A stretch of DNA of 29,101 nucleotides, from IMG/VR virus record IMGVR_UViG_3300035670_000997, positions 1 through 29,101 of that record. One strand, written 5' to 3'. Shown here one piece after another: positions 1,051 through 24,583 of this stretch. How positions within the stretch are numbered: the stretch's first letter is position 1; every line of letters starts with the position of its first letter. The stretch comes from a virus. A program made the translations under genes and the position numbers. A model generated the notes under the pieces. That model did no database searches and was not told the DNA's origin. It worked only from the letters and a program-made list of their open reading frames with translations.

Positions 1051-1251
1051 TTATCTTCTTGTTCGGGCTCTCATATTAGCCTCTTGTTGTTTTTGTCTTT
1101 CGTTTTCTTCCTTAACGAACTGCGTTAGAAGCATAATATAAATTTCTCTTTCGAATGGCATCATCTCTTCAAGTTCAGTTAAACTATATTTATGATGTTG
1201 CATTAGAGCAAAATTTGTCTTGTAATAGTTGGTTAGGTTATCACTAGACAA
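1051..1251 (-). CDS. gp26 frameshift extension (GT-like tape-measure chaperone tail)
   Basis: A 66-codon frame in the -1 phase relative to gp26. No ATG starts it near the N-terminus: the first start codon is TTG at 1251, 2 nt after the gp26 stop, with no ribosome site at proper spacing. The frame is open upstream through the gp26 end, back to a TGA about 30 nt before the slippery sequence. A -1 slip on AAATTTTTTC (1260-1269) would read Phe-Arg-Ile-Ala-Leu and continue, giving a fusion of about 315 aa. The peptide is charged and helical (TELEEMMPFEREIYIMLL, then a basic tail ending RARTRR). Small helical C-terminal extensions made by frameshift are known for lambda G/GT and many other tape-measure chaperones. 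The fusion is inferred. Independent TTG initiation or a non-coding frame are the alternatives. The ORF ends 5 nt before the tape measure start. Confidence 0.6.
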   Translation of the reverse strand: MSSDNLTNYYKTNFALMQHHKYSLTELEEMMPFEREIYIMLLTQFVKEENERQKQQEANMRARTRR

Positions 1252-1253
1252 TG

Positions 1254-1997
1254 CTATCCGAAAAAATTTGCCATGCCCTCCAGAGTAATGTGATCATCAG
1301 TACCACACTTTTCACAATGCCAGTGAATTGTATGCTTAAGTTTGGGCATTGTAGTAAAGAATGCATTCACCTTGGCAAATTGTTCTTGACCAAGATTGTT
1401 AATGAAGTCTTGCAATTCTTGCTTTGTTGATTCTGAAGCAGGATATGTGTTCTCTGCATCAAAAATGTAGTCAATACATTGACAAACAACATCAACAATT
1501 ACATCCATTTGATTCTTTGTGTCTGCTTTCTGCATTTTATCTGCAAGCGAGATGGTTGGGTATTTCAATACAATACCAATCTGCTTTTCTTCATCAAGAA
1601 TAATCTTGTGAGTATGCTCTGGATCCTTCTCGACTTCTACTTCCATGAGATTGAGGTTTTGTTTTGTGACATGATCGCACTCACTCATCTCACGATTTGT
1701 CTTTTCAAAGTGAGATAGATTTAATTCGATTGATTCGCCAATTGATTTTGCACGAAGGCGCATGAAGAAATATTCCAAGTCAAACATTGGAAGTGTTTCA
1801 ACTTTAACACCCTCACTTAAACAACAGTTTGCGATAATCTGTTTGATTGCACGAAGCATTTCGCTTGATTCTTTGCTCTCTAAAGCCATCAAAAGAATCT
1901 TTTGCTCTTTGACCAAGAATGGTCTGTATCGAACCTGCTCACCTGAAGAAGGTAAAGTCAATTCAAAGGTTGGTGTATTAATTTGTGGTAAAGCCAT
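1254..1997 (-). CDS. gp26: Baseplate hub assembly protein gp26 (tape-measure chaperone candidate)
   Basis: A 247-aa protein of the T4 gp26 baseplate family (T4 gp26 is about 208 aa), needed for assembly of the central hub and tape measure. The N-terminus (ALPQINTPTFELTLPSSGE) and the following VRYRPFLVKEQKILLMA segment are typical of the family. A C-terminal Cys/His cluster (H225, H227, C228, C231, H236) looks like a small metal-binding knuckle. The start ATG at 1997 has a strong AAGGAG with 7-nt spacing (2005-2010). The gene is followed by the -1 frame ORF and a probable tape measure gene, and its last codons form a slippery sequence. I therefore infer that it plays the role of lambda gpG. 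gp26 itself is well supported; the chaperone role is inferred from gene order. Confidence 0.85.
   Translation of the reverse strand: MALPQINTPTFELTLPSSGEQVRYRPFLVKEQKILLMALESKESSEMLRAIKQIIANCCLSEGVKVETLPMFDLEYFFMRLRAKSIGESIELNLSHFEKTNREMSECDHVTKQNLNLMEVEVEKDPEHTHKIILDEEKQIGIVLKYPTISLADKMQKADTKNQMDVIVDVVCQCIDYIFDAENTYPASESTKQELQDFINNLGQEQFAKVNAFFTTMPKLKHTIHWHCEKCGTDDHITLEGMANFFG
1260..1281 (-). promoter_or_regulatory. Candidate -1 programmed ribosomal frameshift site at the gp26 end
   Basis: Read on the minus strand, the gp26 codons are GCA AAT TTT TTC GGA TAG. This contains two overlapping canonical -1 heptamers in the correct phase, A AAT TTT and T TTT TTC. Slippage on either yields the same product. 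GGAGGG (1276-1281) sits 6 nt before the first heptamer and 9 nt before the second. This resembles the Shine-Dalgarno stimulator 10 nt upstream of the E. coli dnaX slip site. The zero-frame stop follows 3 nt after the second heptamer. I see no strong downstream stem-loop by eye. Confidence 0.6.
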
Positions 1998-7822: not shown

Positions 7823-8656
7823 ATGTTTCTTGGTAAAGATGGGTTTGTCTGGTGGATTGGTGTTGTTGAAGATATTGAAGATGAGTTGAAACTAGGCAGA
7901 GCCAAGGTTCGCATTTTCGGATATCATCCTGAGTATTCGTCTGGTCGTTTAGACACCAGCGATTTACCTTGGGCGTATACAATTATGCCAACAAATATAC
8001 CAAATGCATTTGGTCGACCAGAACTTGGCGATTGGGTTTTTGGTTTCTTTATTGATGCTGATGAATCAAACGAACCAGCAATTCTAGGTTATCTTCCAGG
8101 CATTCCTTCAGGCACAAACTCTTTTGGTCGCTACAAAAAAGAAACTAGACACTTTGCAAACACAGTCAATTCAGAGAGTTTTTCAATTACAACAAGATCA
8201 GGTCACACACTTGACTTTCAAGATGCCGCAAATGCAGAATCAATTACGCTGACGCATAAAAATCGAAACACTTTTACGATGGCGGCAAACAATGACATTA
8301 CAATCAAACATCAAAAAGGACCAGCCATCACATTAGACGATGATGGTGCTACAGGTCAAATTAAACTCAGAGTTGCCAATACTTCTACACTCAGCAATAC
8401 AAGCATGACAATGGGTTGTAGCACAATTTCAATGAGTGCATGTGCAAATGGGGTCATAAATATTCAAAGAGGAACATCTTCAATTCGAATGTTTGCAAAT
8501 GGCAACATTCAATTGATCGCCGGAGGGGGTTCTGGAGATATACTTGTTACAGGAAATGGGGGATCGTATTCTCTCACATCAAAGATTAAATCGATGGATG
8601 AACAAATTGAGATAGCAAAAACTCTTCCTCCACCTGATGGTATAGGAGAGTTATGA
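7823..8656 (+). CDS. gp5: Baseplate hub spike gp5 without lysozyme domain
   Basis: A 277-aa protein, about half the length of T4 gp5 (575 aa). The N-terminal OB-fold domain is clear: WWIGVVEDIEDELKLGRAKV and RIFGYHPE (about 10-37), LPWAYTIMP, then LGDWVFGFFIDADESNEPAI, as in T4 gp5 and VgrG spikes. The C-terminal part (about 110-265) is a run of short Thr/Ser/Asn-rich strands (ITLTHKNRNTFTMAANNDIT, IQLIAGGG) consistent with the triple-stranded beta-prism needle. The lysozyme domain inserted between them in T4 is absent, so peptidoglycan opening must come from elsewhere. It probably trimerises on gp27. A tip protein of the PAAR type is not visible in this window. Confidence 0.85.
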   Translation: MFLGKDGFVWWIGVVEDIEDELKLGRAKVRIFGYHPEYSSGRLDTSDLPWAYTIMPTNIPNAFGRPELGDWVFGFFIDADESNEPAILGYLPGIPSGTNSFGRYKKETRHFANTVNSESFSITTRSGHTLDFQDAANAESITLTHKNRNTFTMAANNDITIKHQKGPAITLDDDGATGQIKLRVANTSTLSNTSMTMGCSTISMSACANGVINIQRGTSSIRMFANGNIQLIAGGGSGDILVTGNGGSYSLTSKIKSMDEQIEIAKTLPPPDGIGEL

Positions 8657-11137: not shown

Positions 11138-14100
11138 ATGGCTGATGTATTTTTAAACCCTTCATTAAACTTAGACACTCTCTTTCCAACATTAAACGAT
11201 GAGAGTTTCCTTCAGTTTTTGAAGGACTACTATAAGTTTCTACAGAGTACCAAACTTACAATTACAGATGTTTCTGGAACATTTGTAAAAGACGAAATCG
11301 TTACTGGTGCAGATAGCAAAGCAACCGGTAAAGTAGCGTTTGTCGGAACAAATGAGATCATCGTACTGATGACTACCGATGCGCCGCTTGATATCAATGA
11401 GATTATTACTGGTTCAACCTCTGGTGCAACGGCAACTATATCTGGTGTTAAAGACAATGTAATTCGTGAATCTGCAAGACTTCCAAAAGCCCGTAGTCAA
11501 TATGTTTCTGGTGATGAGTTCTTTCAACTTCTAAGAGATGAAGTAAACGCTGGATATCCATCTACATCTGAATCAGATCGTAGACTTCTTTACAATCGAA
11601 TTCGTGACCTCTTACAATCAAAGTCTACTGAAGAAGCATATCGCTTTCTATTCAAAGCATTCTTTGATGAAAACATTGAGATTCGTTTTCCTGGCGATGA
11701 CTTGCTTCGTGTTTCGGATGGTAAGTTTGAAAAGACAAGTCTGATTCGTGTTATTCCTACAAACACAAATCTATTTCCAATTGGCGATATTTTTGACTTT
11801 CTCAATAAAACAATTCGTGGTCAAACATCTGGAGCCGTTGGTACTGTTGTTAACATTTCGATTTCATTCCTTGGTGGTGTTCAGTACGCAGAGTTTAACT
11901 TAAAACTTGTTTCTGGAGAATTTCAAGCAGGCGAAACTGTTGCAGATGTTTTGCAACCAAGACTTTCAACTGAAGTCTATGGTATTATTGGTGACATTCG
12001 AATCAATGATGGTGGTTCAGGATACTCTGTAGGCGATGTGCTTACAATTACTGGTGATGGTGCTGAAGCACTCGCTGAAGTTTCGTCAATCAGCACAGGA
12101 CCTATCAATCGCATCATCGTCAACATCCCAGGTTATGGATATAGAATAAACACAAGAGCAGTAGTAGATAATACTGATACTGCTGGTAACGGTCTCGCAA
12201 TTAGTGTTACTTCAATTGCAAACACTTATACAGTAAGTGATGGAAGTAACACATTCACCGTTGGTGACACAAGCCAAATTCAAATTATAAGTCGTGGTTC
12301 TAATTATCAAAGAACACCAACGATTACTCTTGTTGATGAAACCATTCGAGACCTAGGTCTTCTTTCTGAAAGACTGATTACAATTACCAATTCTGGTAAT
12401 AACTATGCGGTTGGTGAAATACTCACATTTACGGGTGGTGCTGGAAATAATGCCGCAGGTAAAGTTGCATCTGTTGGTAATACTGCACCGTTTGGTGAAG
12501 AGAATTTATTATTTGAAGATGACTTTGTTCTCATTCAAGAACAAGAAGTCAACGGATTGCATAGTGCAATTAAATCAGAAGACTGGACAAACACTGGTCC
12601 AATCTTACGAATTGAACTAACCGACATTGGTAGCGGTTATGCATCAAACAATCTTCCTACACTTACACTTGAATCTGCAAATACAGTAAGCGGTGCAAAC
12701 GCAACATTTACTGTTGACAACATTTTGGGTGTGAGTGCTAATGTCACAGTTGACATTGCAAATAACTCAGTAGGTATTGGTTCAATTCGTCAGATTGATG
12801 TTACAAATCCTGGTATCAATTTTAGTAGCGCAAATGTTGATGCTACTGGTGTTGGTGACGGCAATGCTAATCTAGAAGCAATCATTTCTGGTTTGAATGT
12901 CAATCGTGGTTTCTTCACAAACGATGACGGTAAAGTAAACTATAAGATCATTCAGGACTCCTTCTTCTATCAAGATTTCTCTTATGTGATTCGAAGCGGT
13001 CTGATTATTGACGCCTATAAAGAGTTGGTGAAAGAAACTGTTCACCCGGCTGGTCTTGAGTTCTTCGGCGAAATTGTTATTACATCTATCATTGGTCTTC
13101 AAGCAGAATTCAGAAGTCAAATTGATCAAACACCAAGACCCCTTGCACTCAGCAGTTTCCTATCTTTGTATCCTGTTGGCGTTACTTTCCCATATGCTGG
13201 AAGTATTCGTGAAGTTGAAATTACACCAGCAGTCATTGACCAATTAAGCCTAAGCGAAAATAATTTTGTTCGTGAGATTGATTTTTATCTACCTACAGTA
13301 GAACTAATTTCAACTAGCACATTTGATGTTGGAGCAATTTCACGAATTGAATTGAGTGGAACGCCAATCAATCTAATTGCTGGTGTTGATATAGTTAAAG
13401 ATCAACCCCGTTTTGCGGATGAATATCTTGAGGTTCCTCTTGAATATTTTGGTGATGCGTTAATTTCATCTTATAGTACAACGACATTCTTAGATGCACC
13501 AGATGAAATCTTTGAGGTCCTCTTTAAGAGAGAATACACACAAAGTCTCGAAATTGACATTGCACTATTTGCAAATGTTTCATCACAAATTGTTTTCAAT
13601 GATGTAAACATTGCAGAAACTTCAGTTAGTGAGGCAGTACTTAAACTTGAATTAGATACCGTTTTGGTTCCAGTTTCAATAAGAAATTTTAACCTTCGTG
13701 AAATTGATATAACACCATATGTCGATGCTGGCATAATTGTAGATTACACCAAATCAGATCAATTTTATGCGAATACTTTTGATGAAGTTCCAATCTCATT
13801 TTATGCCGATGAAGGAATTATCAATTATTCATCTACATTATTTACCGACTCATTAGAAGGACAGATTTACTTCACCCAAAGAAGAGAGTACACTCAAAGT
13901 CTTGAGATCGATATTATTTCTTCTGCACAAGAATTTAATGACTATGGTGATTTAGAAACATATGCATTAAGTTACGATTTAATTTCAACTTATGCAGAAA
14001 CAACTTTTGATACAGTATATTCAACCCCATTAAGATCAAGTGGAATTGTAAGTAAATCATATGAAATTGACATTGAACTATTAAAAATTAATAGTTTTGT

Positions 14101-17020
14101 TCCACTTCCGTTCATTTCAAGAGAACAAACGCTTTTCTTAGAACTTTATCTTGACGCTTCTTCAAATATTGTATACAATGATGTTCAGGTACTAGAAACT
14201 TCAATTAGTGATGTTACCGTTACAATATTCTCAATTGCACAAGATACATCAAAATATGAAAATCTGTTGTTATTGAATTTAGCAAATGAAAGCATTTCGG
14301 AATACGCAAACGAAAACTTTTATGGTATTAATATTGTTCCATTAAGATCAAGTGGAATTGTAAGTCAATCATATGAAATTGATATTGAACTTCCTCTTGT
14401 TACTGTTGCGGCAACACTTCAACCATTTAGAATCTTTGTTGATAGATTGCGTCTGCCATCACTTGGTCTTGGAACTTCTATTATTGATGCTACTGTCAGT
14501 TTTGACGGTACATCATATGAAATTGAAACTCGACCAGAGTTTGTTCAGTTTGCCCCAACACCAATTCCACAGACTACTGGAAGACTGAAAAAATTACAAT
14601 ATATTGTTCCTTCAGTTAATGCTGTAATACCAAACATTTATGAAGTAATTAAGATTAATCCAGAAATTGATGTTGCGCCAATCCCAAGAATGAAACTTGA
14701 GATTGATGTAATTGCAGAATTTGTTTCTCCATTCAGAGAAGATTTTTCAATTTACACTTTAGAAGAATTTTCTGACAACACCATTGCAGAATATGCATTA
14801 GAAACATTCTCAAGCCCACATTTATACAAGTATCAATCACTATCATCTTCTGATATTGATTATCGAATCGAAATATATCCATATATCGATTCTCGTATGA
14901 GATTCTATAGTGAAATTCTCACAATGACAAACCGTGAGATGACTGTAGAGATTGATGTGGTTGCAGAATCGGCAATAGTTTCTCCAATCTTCAGACCAAA
15001 ATTGGAGGTTGATATTCCTTCTTATCCAAGATTTCCTCTTGGAGAATTAAATATTGATGCCATTCAAAATGATCTGTTTGGTGGAGAATATGAAACGCTT
15101 TCATTTAATGAAATAATTAATCCAAACTTCATACCATTATCATCAACTACTGAAATTGTAAATAGATTAGAAATCTATGTTGATTTGTCGATGAACTTCT
15201 ATTCAGAAGTCTTTACGGTAGAAAGTTTCACTCAACCAACAGTATTACAAATTAAACCTTATGTTGATGCTGGTATTATTATTGACCTCACAAAAGGTCA
15301 ACTTTATACCGCCGATGACTTTACTGAAATTCCAATCTCATTTTATGCCGATGAAGGAATTATCAACTACACATCAACAACCTTTACTACATCGTTAGAA
15401 GAACCAATTGAGGTTCTTGCGAGAAGACAATACGGTCAAAAAGTTGAAATTGAAATTCCTCTTTACCCAAGAAGAACTGCACTTGGATTAAAAATTGAAG
15501 AAATCGCCAATGAGGAAATTGGTCAAGAGGTATACGGAGAAGCACAATATACAGATGAATCTTTCTTTGGTAAGTTTAATCCAAACTTTATATATTTAAA
15601 TACCGCATCTGAAGTTGTAAAGAGAATCGAATTAGCAAGTATTGATGTGTCAATGAACTTCTATTCAGAAGTCTTTACGGTAGAAAGTTTCACACAACCA
15701 ACCACACTTCTGTTAAATCCTTACATTGATGTTGCGCCAATCCCAAGAATGAAACTTGAGATCGATACGCATTCTCCAAAACGACTTCCAGCCGAACAAT
15801 TAAAGATTGAACAAGTAGAATATGAATTGATTTCGTATTGGTCTGAATTTACTCTTGATGGTGTGCTAAACTTCAACATTCCTAAATTGAATGGTGCATC
15901 TGAAGTTGTGAAGAGAATCGAGTTGGCAAGCATTGATTTGTCAATGAACTTCTACTCAGAAGTCTTTACGATGGAAAGTTTTACCCAACCGACAGTAATT
16001 GAGATTAGTCCATTAGTCAATGTTGGAGTTATTTGGGACTTAACTAAAAAAGAGTTTTATACTGCCGATGACTTTACTGAAATTCCAATCTCATTTTATG
16101 CCGATGAAGGAATTATCAATTATTCATCTACAATATTTACCGACTCATTAGGCGAGAGTGTTGAAGTTACTACAAGAAGACAATATACTGAAAAAATTAA
16201 AATCCAAATCAATTCCGATGGTTTAAATGAAAGTTATTCTGGGCTCGCCTTAGAATATCTTAAAGACTATGGTCTGAGGGATGTTCGTGATGACACATTC
16301 CTAAGTGAAAGTTCAATTCATACCGTACTCCTAAGTCCAATTTCAATTCCAGTCGAGAAAACGATTGAGATTCCAAAAGAAGAAATTTTGGCATCATTTG
16401 ATATCCTTCCAGTTAACCGTGAAATTAAACCATATCTAAATCTTGAAATAGGTAGAACTACTGAAATTGAACTTGATGTGGATTGTAATTATAAATATTC
16501 TGACATTGAACTCACCTTTGTCGCAGATGAAGTGATTTCAAGATTTGCCGAGCAAGATATTGGTGGAAACTATGCATTAGGCGCAACAACATTTAGAGAA
16601 AAGCCAATAACTTTTGGTGAGTTTAGCATAAGAGAGTATCAAGACGAAATTATCGACACATATGATCAACTTGATATACAAGATCCATTTACGAATGATC
16701 TCATTAGGAAAAATGTCCAAATTGATGGTTCAGTATCTTTTACCGATCCAGGACTTTCCGCAATTAGAATCAATTCTTTATATGGAGATCCAATCTCATC
16801 TTTTTCAGAAAGTGTATTAACCGACCTTAGCGGAAGAAAGACTATGGTTGTTGGAACCAATACACAATTTATCTTAGACTATCTTGTAAATGACAGTCTA
16901 ATAACAGATACAGAAAAATTCTTGGTCACAAATGTCGCTAACAACACATATCTGGAAGTTAATGTGAATCCAGAAGAAAATTATATCGATGCATCGGTTT
17001 ACCGAGAGTATTTTGTATAA
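11138..17020 (+). CDS. gp7: Enlarged baseplate wedge protein gp7-like with mosaic repeats
   Basis: A 1,960-aa protein in the gene 7 position between gp6 and gp8 (T4 gp7 is 1,032 aa). The N-terminus (LFPTLNDESFLQFLKDYYKF) and residues about 148-195 (SDRRLLYNRIRDLLQSKSTE, then IEIRFPGDDLLRVSDG) match a family I know from marine T4-like phages in this slot. Residues about 43-110 and 215-285 carry an SGATG-type beta module. Residues about 285-590 carry repeated GSGY/GNNY strands. From about 750 to 1,700 the chain is a mosaic of repeats (SFYADEGIIN three times, NFYSEVFTVESFTQPT three times, RSSGIV-SYEIDIEL twice, DVAPIPRMKLEID twice). The C-terminus holds a VVGTNTQF module shared with the next giant protein. 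It ends in the first late promoter of the gp8 block. The gp7 name rests on position more than on sequence identity. Confidence 0.65.
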   Translation: MADVFLNPSLNLDTLFPTLNDESFLQFLKDYYKFLQSTKLTITDVSGTFVKDEIVTGADSKATGKVAFVGTNEIIVLMTTDAPLDINEIITGSTSGATATISGVKDNVIRESARLPKARSQYVSGDEFFQLLRDEVNAGYPSTSESDRRLLYNRIRDLLQSKSTEEAYRFLFKAFFDENIEIRFPGDDLLRVSDGKFEKTSLIRVIPTNTNLFPIGDIFDFLNKTIRGQTSGAVGTVVNISISFLGGVQYAEFNLKLVSGEFQAGETVADVLQPRLSTEVYGIIGDIRINDGGSGYSVGDVLTITGDGAEALAEVSSISTGPINRIIVNIPGYGYRINTRAVVDNTDTAGNGLAISVTSIANTYTVSDGSNTFTVGDTSQIQIISRGSNYQRTPTITLVDETIRDLGLLSERLITITNSGNNYAVGEILTFTGGAGNNAAGKVASVGNTAPFGEENLLFEDDFVLIQEQEVNGLHSAIKSEDWTNTGPILRIELTDIGSGYASNNLPTLTLESANTVSGANATFTVDNILGVSANVTVDIANNSVGIGSIRQIDVTNPGINFSSANVDATGVGDGNANLEAIISGLNVNRGFFTNDDGKVNYKIIQDSFFYQDFSYVIRSGLIIDAYKELVKETVHPAGLEFFGEIVITSIIGLQAEFRSQIDQTPRPLALSSFLSLYPVGVTFPYAGSIREVEITPAVIDQLSLSENNFVREIDFYLPTVELISTSTFDVGAISRIELSGTPINLIAGVDIVKDQPRFADEYLEVPLEYFGDALISSYSTTTFLDAPDEIFEVLFKREYTQSLEIDIALFANVSSQIVFNDVNIAETSVSEAVLKLELDTVLVPVSIRNFNLREIDITPYVDAGIIVDYTKSDQFYANTFDEVPISFYADEGIINYSSTLFTDSLEGQIYFTQRREYTQSLEIDIISSAQEFNDYGDLETYALSYDLISTYAETTFDTVYSTPLRSSGIVSKSYEIDIELLKINSFVPLPFISREQTLFLELYLDASSNIVYNDVQVLETSISDVTVTIFSIAQDTSKYENLLLLNLANESISEYANENFYGINIVPLRSSGIVSQSYEIDIELPLVTVAATLQPFRIFVDRLRLPSLGLGTSIIDATVSFDGTSYEIETRPEFVQFAPTPIPQTTGRLKKLQYIVPSVNAVIPNIYEVIKINPEIDVAPIPRMKLEIDVIAEFVSPFREDFSIYTLEEFSDNTIAEYALETFSSPHLYKYQSLSSSDIDYRIEIYPYIDSRMRFYSEILTMTNREMTVEIDVVAESAIVSPIFRPKLEVDIPSYPRFPLGELNIDAIQNDLFGGEYETLSFNEIINPNFIPLSSTTEIVNRLEIYVDLSMNFYSEVFTVESFTQPTVLQIKPYVDAGIIIDLTKGQLYTADDFTEIPISFYADEGIINYTSTTFTTSLEEPIEVLARRQYGQKVEIEIPLYPRRTALGLKIEEIANEEIGQEVYGEAQYTDESFFGKFNPNFIYLNTASEVVKRIELASIDVSMNFYSEVFTVESFTQPTTLLLNPYIDVAPIPRMKLEIDTHSPKRLPAEQLKIEQVEYELISYWSEFTLDGVLNFNIPKLNGASEVVKRIELASIDLSMNFYSEVFTMESFTQPTVIEISPLVNVGVIWDLTKKEFYTADDFTEIPISFYADEGIINYSSTIFTDSLGESVEVTTRRQYTEKIKIQINSDGLNESYSGLALEYLKDYGLRDVRDDTFLSESSIHTVLLSPISIPVEKTIEIPKEEILASFDILPVNREIKPYLNLEIGRTTEIELDVDCNYKYSDIELTFVADEVISRFAEQDIGGNYALGATTFREKPITFGEFSIREYQDEIIDTYDQLDIQDPFTNDLIRKNVQIDGSVSFTDPGLSAIRINSLYGDPISSFSESVLTDLSGRKTMVVGTNTQFILDYLVNDSLITDTEKFLVTNVANNTYLEVNVNPEENYIDASVYREYFV
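13789..16151 (+). repeat. Mosaic intragenic repeats inside the gp7-like gene
   Basis: Near-identical nucleotide blocks recur at distance. The SFYADEGIIN block is at about 13789-13857, 15331-15371 and 16084-16151; copies one and three are almost identical over some 65 nt. The NFYSEVFTVESF block is at about 15187-15240, 15650-15702 and 15942-15995. Just before the start, a block encoding RSSGIVS is at 14027 and again at 14339, and DVAPIPRMKLEID is at 14671 and 15728. DNA-level identity, including synonymous positions, points to recent duplication or gene conversion. Confidence 0.8.
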
Positions 17021-18406: not shown

Positions 18407-21400
18407 ATGTCAAATCCCGGTGGCGTAGATTTAAACATTGGTCCATACTTTGACGATTATGATGAAGATAAGAAGTATGTAAGAGTTCTCTATAGACCTG
18501 GTCGAGCAGTCCAGGCTAGAGAACTCACACAAGCACAGACTTATCAGCAAAAGCAGATTCAACGCTTTGCTGAATACTTCTTTAGCGAAGGATCAATTGT
18601 AGATGGATGCGAACAGAGTTTAGACTTGAGAATGGAGTATGTAAAACTCCAGACCGAGTATGATTCTGTTGAAGTTGATGTTGAAGACTTTTTAGGACAA
18701 AGAGTTATTGGTGCGAACACTGGTTGCCGTGCCTATGTAGGTCTTGTTACTGATATTGATGGCGAAGACCCAAAAACTCTTTTCATTAATTATGAATCAA
18801 CAGGAACAGTCATTCTCAATGTTGATGCCACCGGTGCATTTATCACTCTTGGTAACACAGTTACCTTCAACTCTGGTAATACTGGAGTTATTAAAGCATT
18901 TTATCAAGACCAAGATACATTAGGGTATAAAGTCTATGTTGGTGATTTGCGTGGTGGTGTTGATACTGTACCATTTACTGCAAACTCAATAGGTTCAGAT
19001 GGTACTACATTCACCATGAATGTTGGTTCGGTCAGCGATAAAAGAACATCTAAGCAATTTGAGAATAGCGAAAAACTTTTTGTTTTATTTGATGATATTG
19101 CTGATTCACCAAATACTGCATACGCAAATACTGCAACATCTAGAGCAACCTTCACAATTGTTAATGAAGGTCTTGCCACACAAGAGACTTTCAACTATGG
19201 TTCAAAATATACTATCAATGATGGCGTAATCTATGTTGCCGATCACTTTGTTAAGCATGATTCACAGACAATCATTCTTGACAAATACACAAACCGTCCA
19301 TCATATAAAGTTGGTGTAATTCCAACCAAAACATTCATCGACACAGTTGATGACCAAACACTTCTTGACAATGCTCAAGGCACACCAAACTTCCAAGCAC
19401 TTGGCGCTGATCGTCTTAAGATCGATACAGTACTTGCTAAAGTTCCGCTTGATGAAGCCACGGACGAATCTGAATTCGTGCCTATTACAGAAGTTATTAG
19501 TGGTAACATTGTAAAGAAATTTACTGATCAAGTTGAAAATAAATTAGAAGACGCACTTGCTAGAAGAACATTTGAAGAATCTGGAAACTACACGCTTTCC
19601 GATCCAAGAATTTTTATTCGTGAACACTTAAGTATTGATGACAATCGTGGTAAGTTTACTGAGGCTGAAGGTGGTAACAATGAATTGCTTGTCATTGAAA
19701 CTGATCCATTCGTTTCATATGTAAAGGGTTTCAGAAACGAACTACTCACAAAAGTTTTCACACCAGTACGAAAAGGTACTGATACACAATTCGTTGAACA
19801 AGTCAAGACTGCAATTCTTGTTGGTTCTTATATTCCAGTTAAAGAACTTGTTGGCACATGGGATTTCATGGAATCAACAGTCATTGATCTCTATGATACT
19901 GCACAAGAAGCCATTTCAAATAATAGTTTTAGTTCCACAACTCTAACTGGTTCTAAGATTGGTGAAGCAAGAGTAAGAGCCGTAGAGTATGCATCAGGCA
20001 CCGTAGGTACTGCTGATTCAAGATACGATCTCTACATCTATGATATCGTAATGAATCAAGATAAACTTTTCCAAGATGTTCGTGCATTTTATCAGAGTGG
20101 CGGTTCTTTCCCAAATCGATTTGCAGATGTTGTGGTCGATGCGTTAGGTAATGCGACACTCAGAGAATCTGCATTTGAATCATCTATCTTTAAACTTCCA
20201 TATGTTGGTATTCAAACACTCCGTGACGAAAATAACAATGTGGAATCAGGATTTCAGTTTAGAAAAGAATTTCCAGCAAACTTTAACGGTTCTGGACAGG
20301 TTACGCTTGCTACCACAGACTTGAACGAAACATTTGGTTCAGGTGGTACTGAAGCACTTAAAAATACAAACTATCTTGTTATACCAACAAATACTGCAAA
20401 TACTGCCGCACTCACAGGAACAACAAATGTGATTGCAGATGTTGCGACAGGCACTAATACGGTCATTTCAAGTTTGCCTGGTGCGACAACAACATTCACT
20501 ACAGAATATCAAGTTGGTGATGTAATTCGTATCGATGGTGAAGACAGAATCATTTCTGCAATTACAAACAACTTCTGGATGACAGTAACTTCAGAATATA
20601 CTTCAGCGGCTTCAAACGAAGATCACTATAAAGTATTTCCTGCTGGTCGCCCAATTAAACTTTCTGGCATTGGTTCAAATGGTGTTGAAAGAACAGTTTC
20701 AGTTGGTTCACCTCCACAGACAGTAGATATTGATCTACAGGAGAATGGGCTAATTTCAAGTTCTGGATCAGGTTTCTCTGCAAGGGTCTCAATTATTATG
20801 GACCGTGCAAATGCTAGAGAAACTCGTAAGACACTTAACGCAAACCGTGAAATTCAAATTCAAGCCAATACACATCCAAATGGATTTGTTGGACCTTATG
20901 GATTAGGATATGGTGACATTTATCAGATTCGTGGAATCTATCAGTCAAGTGGATTTGGTATTTCAGCAACCACAAGCAATACAAATGTCACAAGTCTTTA
21001 CACTTTAGACAATGGTCAAAGAGATACTTCATACGAACATGGAACAATTACACCTAATGTTGGTGTAACTCCAACAGGAAATCTTCTTGTTGTATTTGAT
21101 CATTTCACACACGATACTTCACAAGGTATTGGATATCTATCATTCGATTCATATCCTGTTAACGATGAAACATCATCTAATACAACGATTCGAACAGAAG
21201 AAGTTCCATCATATCGTTCCGTTAGAACTGGAGAACTTTTCAGTCTGCGTGATTGTCTAGACTTCAGACCAATCAAAGCGGCAAGCGCAAGCACTACAAA
21301 CCCAACCGATGGCGGAACATATCAGATTCCAACAGGCGGTTTACACTTCCCAACACCAGCATCAGACTTTGATGCTGACCTAATTTACTACAAGGGAAGA

Positions 21401-24400
21401 AAAGCAAAACTATACATTGATCAAAATGGTAACTTAGGAATCAATGATGGTTCTCCTGGTTATCCTCTTGCATCACCACCACCAACTATTCCAGACACAC
21501 TAGAATTAGCAGAGATTACAATTCCTGTTTATCCATCATTGGCTGGTGACATTCGTATTGAATCTTATAAGAATCGTAGATTTACAATGCGTGAAATTGG
21601 TAAGATGAATAAGCGCATCGAACAAATTGAATACTATGCGACACTCAGCGAACTAGAAAAACAAGCACAATCAAAAGTTGAAGTTGATGACGATGGATTT
21701 GATCGTTTCAAGAACGGTATTCTTGTAGATTCTTTCTCAGGACATAACATTCATGATGTTTTTAATCCTGATGGTAATCGTGTTCGAATTGACACCAGTG
21801 CAAATTATGCTACCACATATGCAAACAACCAAGTACAGGTTGAACTTGCACTCAATGAATCTTCATCTTCAAACATTAGAAAGACACCAGGAAGAAAAGT
21901 ATATGTAAACTATACTGAACAAGATTTTATTGATCAGCCATATGCATCAACAACAATCAACCTAGCGCAAGAACTTACATTTACATGGTCTGGTGACATG
22001 ACCATTATTCCTGCTACAGACAATTGGGTTGATACAAGTTATCCTCCAGAAGCAAACACAAACATTGACCTAACTGGTATTACTGATAACTTTAAAGCAA
22101 TTGCAGATTCTTGGAATACTGTTGTTGCGCCACATCTTCGCCATTGGGTTGGTGAAACACCAAAAACAACAACGACTACAACAACCGGTCGTTCACGAAG
22201 CGGTAGGGTGGTTACGGAATATAAAGATACAAGAACTGTTACAACACAAAATCAAAAACTAAATGAGATTCAAGCAAACTTCACTCTTGCTAATGAAGAT
22301 GTAAACACAGTTACCGAGCGAGTTTCTGACATTAGTATTAAACATTACATTCGCCCAAGAGATTTTGTATTTGTATCTCAAGGCATGAAAGATGGTTCAA
22401 AACTTTATGCATTCTTTGATGGTGAAGATGTAACTGCAAATTGTACACAAATTGCATTGGCAGATGGTGCTGATGTAAATGATTTGTTTGACTTGTTTGA
22501 TACAGATGGCATTCTTCAAGCCGATGCTGGAGTTTACTCTCTTGGTACTGCTGGAGACCTTACAGTAAATAGTAATCGAATTATTGGTGTCTTTAGAGTT
22601 CCAGAAGGAAGATTCTTTGTTGGTCAAAGATCATTCCGTTTGACTGATAGCGAAACTGATGATGTTGAAGAAGCAACTACAATTGCTACTCAATCAATTT
22701 TTGCACAAGGACTTTCTGTAGCAAAAGGTCTTGATGTTGTTAATACACGACCATTCACATTTGATGGTTTTGCTAATCAGCAATTAAAAGGTAAAGGCAC
22801 ATCAAGAAAAGTTACACTCAAAGACGAAACTACTAGAAAAATTATTCGTCAATGGTATGATCCACTTTCTCAAAGTTTCTATGTTGACGAAGAAACATAT
22901 CCAGAAGGTATATATGTTACATCCCTTGACTTGTTCTTTAAAACAAAATCTCCAGACACATCTAAGCATGGTGTGACTTGTGAGATTCGTGAAATGGACA
23001 ATGGATTCCCAACAAGATTGGTGATTGGTGGTGAGGTTGCTAGAAGAGAACATGATGATATTGTAATTAGTGATGATAGTACTGCAAACACTACATTTAC
23101 ATTTGCAAATCCAATTTTCTTACCGCCAGGTATTGAATATTGTTGGGTTGCAAAACCTGATGGTAATGTGACAGACTTTAATGTGTTTGTTGCCGAACTT
23201 GGACAGTTTGACATTACCAATCCAGAAGTTAATTTCAGAATTACTGAACAACCTGCAACTGGCATGTTGTTTACCTCTGCAAACGACTTTACTTGGATAC
23301 CAAGACAGAATCAAGATGTTAAGTTTAAGTTAAGAACTGCACAATTTAGCACAACGCCAGCAACAGTTATTCTACAAAACAAGCCATGGGCAAATACTGG
23401 AGGCAACTTCAACTTCAATGCTTATTCATTGAACCTTGAAAACTTAACTACACCAAAATCTAATATTCTTTTAGAAGGAAGAACTGCTGACGGAACATAC
23501 ACCCTCAGTACATTCAATAGCATTAAGAACTTGGAGAGAATTCAGTTGTCAACGATGCAACAACTCGCCAATTCATCAAATGAAACATCATTCCTTCCTA
23601 CAGATAAATCAATTACGATTAGAGCAACGATGCTCACAGAAAATGCAAATGTTTCTCCATACATTGATATTGAGAGAATGCGTGTTTACTTAGAGCAAAA
23701 TATTATTAACAATTCTACCTTTAATCAGTTGACTGGTACAGTTACCTATAACACATCAAATAATATTGTTGCTGGCGTTGGTACGCTTTTTGATAGTGAA
23801 ATTGATGTTGGTGAATATGCATTGTTCGGTGAAGAGTATCGTCAAGTTTCTTTTGTTGCAAACGATAACTATCTTGAAGTTAAGAATAACTTTACAACTT
23901 CTGGTTCTGGAGTTTCTGTCATTAGTAAAGCCGCAGAAAATCCATCTGGGCCATACGCCGACCTCACACGATACATTACCCGTGTGGTAGAATTGAATGA
24001 TGGATTTGAATCATCCGACTTGGCAGTTTATTTGGCAGTCAATCGCCCACCAGGCACGGATATCAAAGTATACTACAAAGTGCTTAGTGAAAACGACAAT
24101 GATCCATTTGACTTCAAATTCTATAATGAAATGACGCTTGATGGAACGGCTAAAACCAGTCAAGAATCGACTGTATACAATGAAGAAAAATATATCGTAC
24201 CTCTTGCTAAGAAAACTGGTGGTTCAAGACTTCTCGATGGAAGAGTTACAATCACGAATGGTTCAGTAGATGTTGTTGGTGCAAATACAGTATTCTTGGA
24301 GCAATTACAAGTTGGTGCAGATATTGCCGTTGGTACATCAAGACTTCAGAGAACGATTTCATCGATCACAAATAACACATTCCTGACCGTAGAATCTGCA

Positions 24401-24583
24401 TATTCCTCTGATGCGACAAATCAAGAGATTTATAGAATTCTAAATAACTCAATTGGGTATACAACACCAGATGGTAGATCATTTAGTGGATATAAATATT
24501 TTGCTATTAAGGTAGTGTTTTTATCAACCAATACGGCAGTTGCACCAAAAATTAAAGATTTAAGAGTGATTGCCTTGGCTTAA
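18407..24583 (+). CDS. Giant virion structural protein, DUF4815-type
   Basis: A 2,058-aa protein in the place where T4 has genes 9-12. The N-terminus (GPYFDDYDEDKKYVRVLYRP, then GRAVQARELTQAQTYQQKQI) is typical of the DUF4815 virion proteins of marine T4-like phages. Residues about 95-170 carry an SGATG-type module. Three copies of a GxxTxF/vGd/NNxxLxV beta module lie at about 672-740, 1773-1841 and 1940-2013. Residues about 1,245-1,290 are a Thr/Arg/Ser-rich linker. RPRDFVFVSQGMKDGSKLYA near 1,316 begins a second conserved block. It probably forms the baseplate periphery linking wedge to fibres, a role inferred from position. AAAGGG precedes the ATG at 18407. Translation ends 21 nt before the next gene. 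Confidence 0.75.
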   Translation: MSNPGGVDLNIGPYFDDYDEDKKYVRVLYRPGRAVQARELTQAQTYQQKQIQRFAEYFFSEGSIVDGCEQSLDLRMEYVKLQTEYDSVEVDVEDFLGQRVIGANTGCRAYVGLVTDIDGEDPKTLFINYESTGTVILNVDATGAFITLGNTVTFNSGNTGVIKAFYQDQDTLGYKVYVGDLRGGVDTVPFTANSIGSDGTTFTMNVGSVSDKRTSKQFENSEKLFVLFDDIADSPNTAYANTATSRATFTIVNEGLATQETFNYGSKYTINDGVIYVADHFVKHDSQTIILDKYTNRPSYKVGVIPTKTFIDTVDDQTLLDNAQGTPNFQALGADRLKIDTVLAKVPLDEATDESEFVPITEVISGNIVKKFTDQVENKLEDALARRTFEESGNYTLSDPRIFIREHLSIDDNRGKFTEAEGGNNELLVIETDPFVSYVKGFRNELLTKVFTPVRKGTDTQFVEQVKTAILVGSYIPVKELVGTWDFMESTVIDLYDTAQEAISNNSFSSTTLTGSKIGEARVRAVEYASGTVGTADSRYDLYIYDIVMNQDKLFQDVRAFYQSGGSFPNRFADVVVDALGNATLRESAFESSIFKLPYVGIQTLRDENNNVESGFQFRKEFPANFNGSGQVTLATTDLNETFGSGGTEALKNTNYLVIPTNTANTAALTGTTNVIADVATGTNTVISSLPGATTTFTTEYQVGDVIRIDGEDRIISAITNNFWMTVTSEYTSAASNEDHYKVFPAGRPIKLSGIGSNGVERTVSVGSPPQTVDIDLQENGLISSSGSGFSARVSIIMDRANARETRKTLNANREIQIQANTHPNGFVGPYGLGYGDIYQIRGIYQSSGFGISATTSNTNVTSLYTLDNGQRDTSYEHGTITPNVGVTPTGNLLVVFDHFTHDTSQGIGYLSFDSYPVNDETSSNTTIRTEEVPSYRSVRTGELFSLRDCLDFRPIKAASASTTNPTDGGTYQIPTGGLHFPTPASDFDADLIYYKGRKAKLYIDQNGNLGINDGSPGYPLASPPPTIPDTLELAEITIPVYPSLAGDIRIESYKNRRFTMREIGKMNKRIEQIEYYATLSELEKQAQSKVEVDDDGFDRFKNGILVDSFSGHNIHDVFNPDGNRVRIDTSANYATTYANNQVQVELALNESSSSNIRKTPGRKVYVNYTEQDFIDQPYASTTINLAQELTFTWSGDMTIIPATDNWVDTSYPPEANTNIDLTGITDNFKAIADSWNTVVAPHLRHWVGETPKTTTTTTTGRSRSGRVVTEYKDTRTVTTQNQKLNEIQANFTLANEDVNTVTERVSDISIKHYIRPRDFVFVSQGMKDGSKLYAFFDGEDVTANCTQIALADGADVNDLFDLFDTDGILQADAGVYSLGTAGDLTVNSNRIIGVFRVPEGRFFVGQRSFRLTDSETDDVEEATTIATQSIFAQGLSVAKGLDVVNTRPFTFDGFANQQLKGKGTSRKVTLKDETTRKIIRQWYDPLSQSFYVDEETYPEGIYVTSLDLFFKTKSPDTSKHGVTCEIREMDNGFPTRLVIGGEVARREHDDIVISDDSTANTTFTFANPIFLPPGIEYCWVAKPDGNVTDFNVFVAELGQFDITNPEVNFRITEQPATGMLFTSANDFTWIPRQNQDVKFKLRTAQFSTTPATVILQNKPWANTGGNFNFNAYSLNLENLTTPKSNILLEGRTADGTYTLSTFNSIKNLERIQLSTMQQLANSSNETSFLPTDKSITIRATMLTENANVSPYIDIERMRVYLEQNIINNSTFNQLTGTVTYNTSNNIVAGVGTLFDSEIDVGEYALFGEEYRQVSFVANDNYLEVKNNFTTSGSGVSVISKAAENPSGPYADLTRYITRVVELNDGFESSDLAVYLAVNRPPGTDIKVYYKVLSENDNDPFDFKFYNEMTLDGTAKTSQESTVYNEEKYIVPLAKKTGGSRLLDGRVTITNGSVDVVGANTVFLEQLQVGADIAVGTSRLQRTISSITNNTFLTVESAYSSDATNQEIYRILNNSIGYTTPDGRSFSGYKYFAIKVVFLSTNTAVAPKIKDLRVIALA
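24491..24498 (+). promoter_or_regulatory. Possible late promoter inside the end of the giant virion gene
   Basis: An exact TATAAATA encoding part of GYKYF, about 107 nt upstream of the small coiled-coil gene. It would give a usable leader for that gene, which the closer element at 24596 cannot. It lies in coding sequence and may be chance. Confidence 0.4.

Follow-up and report, generated by a model that had tools for sequence, protein, structure and literature searches.

The stretch analyzed here, referred to as the window (IMG/VR record IMGVR_UViG_3300035670_000997), is an uncultivated virus fragment of 29,101 bases belonging to a marine T4-like phage, and our subject is its gp26 gene together with a short open reading frame (ORF) that follows in the -1 frame. 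The gene (1254–1997, minus strand) encodes a protein of 247 amino acids that matches Pfam T4_baseplate (PF12322; 2.5e-61, 207.6 bits against a cut-off of 24.5) and phrog_150 (4.6e-64), and that gave an AlphaFold2 model with a pLDDT of 92; we annotate it as the predicted short form of a tail assembly chaperone (TAC-N, G-like). Read on the minus strand, the gene ends in CTG GAG GGC ATG GCA AAT TTT TTC GGA TAG, in which the heptamer T TTT TTC (1260–1266) lies in the gp26 phase. An open -1 frame extends from a few codons 5′ of this T-run down to 1051, and the segment of it that in our model is reached only via a frameshift (1051–1265, minus strand, FFRIAL...RTRR) is a gp51/T-like C-terminal domain. 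A match to the gp51 family phrog_634 (1.2e-29) covers its product from the slip residues onward, and the product can be aligned with the C-terminus of T4 gp51 using just a one-residue gap. Joining gp26 to this domain in silico gave a fusion of 315 amino acids, the length that an initial annotation of the window had estimated. The same annotation had described a 66-codon ORF in the -1 frame, open through the slip site; frame and openness were borne out, but the figure of 66 counts from a TTG without a Shine-Dalgarno sequence, and the conserved domain starts at the slip. The window holds a single gp26 and a single gp51 segment in different frames, unlike the two-gene layout of T4 proper, and no second full-length gp26-like copy fused to a gp51 domain was noticed within the 29-kb fragment, which is part of a genome.

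Among annotated phage records, tblastn found 712 with gp26 and 717 with the -1 segment. Querying bacterial genomes, one for each species, with the gp26 of an Agrobacterium phage gave no relative. We analyzed 191 loci (190 related loci that were collected, plus the window), which by protein identity formed 67 clusters at 80% and 26 at 60%. Ten loci fell outside the -1 set, two being cut by contig ends and eight coming from T-even-type or Campylobacter phages with a fused frame. Outside the T-even type, both parts are present in 181 loci, and every one of them has the gp51 domain in the -1 frame relative to gp26; the last gp26 codons include an in-phase T TTT TTN in 180 of these, that is, in 180 of the 180 intact loci. 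The remaining locus (L177), an IMG/VR contig near HTVC008M, has a gp26 frame broken inside the gene, through either a contig error or a pseudogene. The third codon of the slip site is TTC in 156 loci, TTT in 20, TTA in 2 and TTG in 2, and the codon 5′ of TTT is AAT, AGT, TCT, GAT or GCT: the residue varies and the third base is always T. All 67 clusters carry NNT TTT, compared with 26.7 expected from observed codon usage given the encoded amino acids (log10 P of -27.2 for chance occurrence in all 67, uncorrected for phylogeny). The -1 product is conserved from precisely the slip residues onward. Counted by codon position of the -1 frame, its segment has 4782/1923/11673 substitutions, a concentration at third positions that marks coding constraint. 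Two overlapping heptamers had been proposed in the initial annotation, and both are indeed in phase; only T TTT TTN is conserved, and A AAT TTT was rejected as a slip site, as its AAT codon is AGT, TCT, GAT or GCT in many relatives. No relative in which the slip sequence is disrupted while both ORFs stay intact, a case raised in that annotation, was present among the 181 loci.

Upstream of the slip site, a Shine-Dalgarno-like GGAGGG (1276–1281, minus strand) lies 6 nt from A AAT TTT (1263–1269) and 9 nt from T TTT TTC, matching the 6–9 nt first noted. Codon bias and pairing with the anti-Shine-Dalgarno sequence both indicate that this element is enriched in relatives. Five codons 5′ of the slip, Glu is encoded by GAG in 34 of 52 clusters, compared with 24.7% elsewhere (p = 7e-10), and the anti-Shine-Dalgarno duplex has an energy of -6.55 kcal/mol vs -4.92 ± 0.18 kcal/mol in synonymous shuffles, making it 1.6 kcal/mol stronger. 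The comparison across related phages proposed in the initial annotation upheld the phase, the T TTT TTN heptamer and the upstream element.

Downstream, a candidate stimulatory stem-loop (1215–1251, minus strand) begins 8 nt 3′ of the heptamer, with the stem UUGUCU-A-GUGAUA / UAUUAC-A-AGACAA. The 55-nt segment 1259–1205 that contains it folds at -12.3 kcal/mol (z = -3.07). Across relatives, a peak of RNA structure occurs +8 to +12 nt past the slip, with a mean z of -1.9 at +8 in 45-nt windows, compared with -0.5 to +0.3 at control positions lying over 75 nt 5′ or at least 20 nt 3′. A hairpin of -6 kcal/mol or better starts 4–10 nt 3′ of the heptamer in 24 of 67 clusters, and a perfect helix of 9 bp or more follows the slip in 19 clusters, against a mean of 2.6 (maximum 10) at upstream positions. 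An Rfam search returned nothing relevant.

The reading frame, the slip site and the signals around it are conserved, and both domains have recognizable homologs. On this comparative sequence evidence, the gp26 gene very probably makes a short and a long tail assembly chaperone by -1 ribosomal frameshifting of the lambda G/GT type. Most ribosomes would terminate at 1254 and yield the 247-amino-acid short form (TAC-N). A smaller number, delayed by GGAGGG on the 5′ side and by the stem-loop on the 3′ side, would slip one base back on U UUU UUC, where two tRNA-Phe could re-pair with UUU UUU, and would then read on in the -1 frame to give a 315-amino-acid long form (TAC-NC) carrying the gp51 domain. 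We infer the slippage itself, its rate and the chaperone role of the products. By analogy with lambda, the tape measure protein, product of the next gene, would be coated by many short and few long copies, and tube subunits would be brought in by the C-terminal domain of the long form. The initial annotation had the fusion recruiting the tape measure; the same analogy assigns this differently, with tape measure binding expected of the gp26 part and recruitment of tube subunits of the T-like part.

Some results weigh against this interpretation. RNAalifold did not find a stem-loop common to all lineages among the relatives; the stem-loops fall in two main registers, with partner positions summing to 52 or to 40, in different clades. 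Searching the PDB with the gp26 model in Foldseek gave the HK97 chaperone 2ob9 the top probability among the matches listed (0.54), as a weak, partial and at most suggestive match with an E-value of 1.2. Also, in schizoT4 Vibrio phages and some other lineages the C-terminal domain could be made alone by reinitiation too.

In most public records gp51 is entered as a separate small gene. As such it would use a start codon of its own, or be reinitiated once ribosomes had terminated gp26, with the T-run at the junction being incidental. In the Vibrio schizoT4 phages an ATG does overlap the gp26 stop, and codon 4 or 5 is an ATG in 20 of 67 clusters. However, start codons in this frame lie at differing places in different lineages and none is conserved across the 67 clusters, consistent with the first description of the ORF as lacking a proper start. 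ATG, GTG and TTG are all absent through codon 19 in 19 of 67 clusters, and Aeromonas phages phiAS5 and 65 carry a -1 frame stop directly 5′ of FFRL at the slip site. An independent gene is also at odds with conservation that sets in precisely at the slip and with the constraint on the wobble bases there. We therefore consider a free-standing gp51 gene very unlikely, and an own start was rejected as a general mechanism.

The six Ts in a row after three As could also suggest that the frames are joined by transcriptional rather than ribosomal slippage. A run of six or seven is shorter than usual for slippage by bacterial RNA polymerase, and it ends in C in 156 of 180 loci. Moreover, the Shine-Dalgarno-like element acts on ribosomes, and the downstream hairpin is still untranscribed while the polymerase sits at the run, so that slippage during transcription appears more improbable still. 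A homopolymer at a junction likewise raises the suspicion that a sequencing or assembly error split one gene. This is refuted by breadth, as the same layout occurs in 181 loci that include finished isolate genomes from different laboratories, and we give such an error practically no credence.

The small “gp51” genes of marine T4-like genomes are most probably no genes in their own right but the end of gp26 that ribosomes reach by frameshifting, which makes the annotation of many phage records wrong at this point. Cyanophage gp51 has been remarked to be without its first ~200 residues (Sullivan et al., 2010; PMC3037559), and ribosomal frameshifting would account for this shortness. In phiAS5 (L192, 2501–2683) the gp51 domain is annotated from an internal ATG with the conserved half trimmed, and in Aeromonas phage 65.2 (L193, 2501–2677) it is unannotated; the trimming and the omission arose because a stop closes the -1 frame before FFRL. 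S-WAM1 (L001) and ACG-2014j (L003) are also without a gp51 entry, and misannotation is widespread.

T4 itself has gp26 and gp51 as two genes on opposite strands, with no frameshift. In the T-even-type phages tested both proteins match Pfam T4_baseplate, and T-even gp51 naturally joins, in one reading frame, a gp26-like domain to the same C-terminal domain as found in the window, gp26 being the homolog of the short form. Judged from these sequences, T4 gp26 and gp51 are paralogs: T4 devotes a gene to each of the two forms, short and long, where its relatives use one gene and a frameshift. In a tree of the shared domain, a branch with 97/92 support has T-even gp26 and gp51 on the same side (to be read with caution given the long branches). 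In Pectobacterium phage POP12 (L194, 1934–3209), gp54 and gp25 flank a tandem pair of genes 51 and 26, in this order and on the same strand; in T4, by contrast, gp51 and gp26 diverge. Both the tree and this tandem order are compatible with a duplication having replaced the frameshift in the T-even lineage. A wider scenario, to which we give even chances, is that the entire T4 superfamily inherited the cassette from its ancestor, with an invariant U UUU UUN, a stem-loop repeatedly rebuilt in different registers, and an escape of the T-even lineage when the gene was duplicated in tandem to give gp26 (short) and gp51 (long), for which the 51–26 order of POP12 is suggestive. In Campylobacter phage F379 (L091, 1955–2695) gp26-like and gp51 domains form one in-frame ORF of 246 amino acids, and no short copy was seen nearby. 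T4 gp51 is reported to be essential and absent from the final particle, and its function was called unknown in a 2010 review (PMC3004832); our results support a role for it as the long tail assembly chaperone.

Known systems resemble the window in part. The frameshift cassette of E. coli dnaX consists of an upstream Shine-Dalgarno sequence, a slippery heptamer and a downstream stem-loop, the same three parts as in the window, but with an A AAA AAG slip site and in an unrelated gene. Lambda G/GT slips on G GGA AAG, unlike the window, where U UUU UUC would be used together with the Shine-Dalgarno-like element and stem-loop; PF12322 showed no sequence relation to a solved chaperone, and no phage protein came up when solved structures were searched by profile. 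The lambda system, part of a conserved siphophage chaperone frameshift (Xu, Hendrix and Duda, 2004; summarized in PMC5009743), likewise has a short and a long product. In the Vandenendeviridae/Andersonviridae (phage Adele, PMC12846349) a -1 shift also takes place on a T-run at the end of a chaperone gene, in other phage families and on another motif (GTTTTT).

Tail assembly chaperones of T4-like phages were identified by Vladimirov, Gautam and Davidson (Virology 2022), as cited in PMC10885494 and PMC12846349. As far as these accounts go, that work concerns the same gene families, with a one-gene frameshift layout in some groups and separate short and fused long genes in the T4 type; the window differs in being an uncultivated virus fragment. 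Instead of frameshifting, some T4-like phages are described as using a short gene alongside a longer, fused one, and T4 itself as having the two forms as separate genes (PMC10885494). The frameshift is correctly identified here and, on the account given in these sources, already established for T4-like phages; the window adds one example and useful extra detail of the cis signals to a known kind of system. The abstract of the 2022 study is said to describe frameshifting as conserved in several T4-like groups and to name T4 genes 26 and 51. The joining of gp26 to the downstream ORF by a -1 frameshift, and the G/GT analogy, which the initial annotation had put forward, have strong comparative support and agree with published work. 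It was also right that gene 51 is a separate ORF in T4; its remark of not knowing the frameshift as an established feature for gp26 in T4 itself is answered by Vladimirov et al. (2022).

The minus-strand gene order is gp4, gp2, a tube-initiator-like protein, gp26, the short -1 frame ORF and the start of a large tape-measure-like protein. The last (2–1045), cut by the window end and directly downstream of the gp26/-1 ORF unit, is a probable tape measure gene; truncated here, it gave weak matches to the tail length tape measure family phrog_1272 (1.7e-7) and the tail protein family phrog_1204 (3e-7). In the relatives HTVC008M and Cr30 an annotated tape measure lies shortly 3′, with one small ORF between. 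Elsewhere in the window, a gp5-like hub protein of 277 amino acids (7823–8656) matched tail-lysozyme profiles over the N-terminal third of the profiles only, and the lysozyme part may be missing or located elsewhere. A very large protein of 1960 amino acids (11138–17020) had no match in a Pfam search, and another of 2058 amino acids (18407–24583) contains DUF4815.
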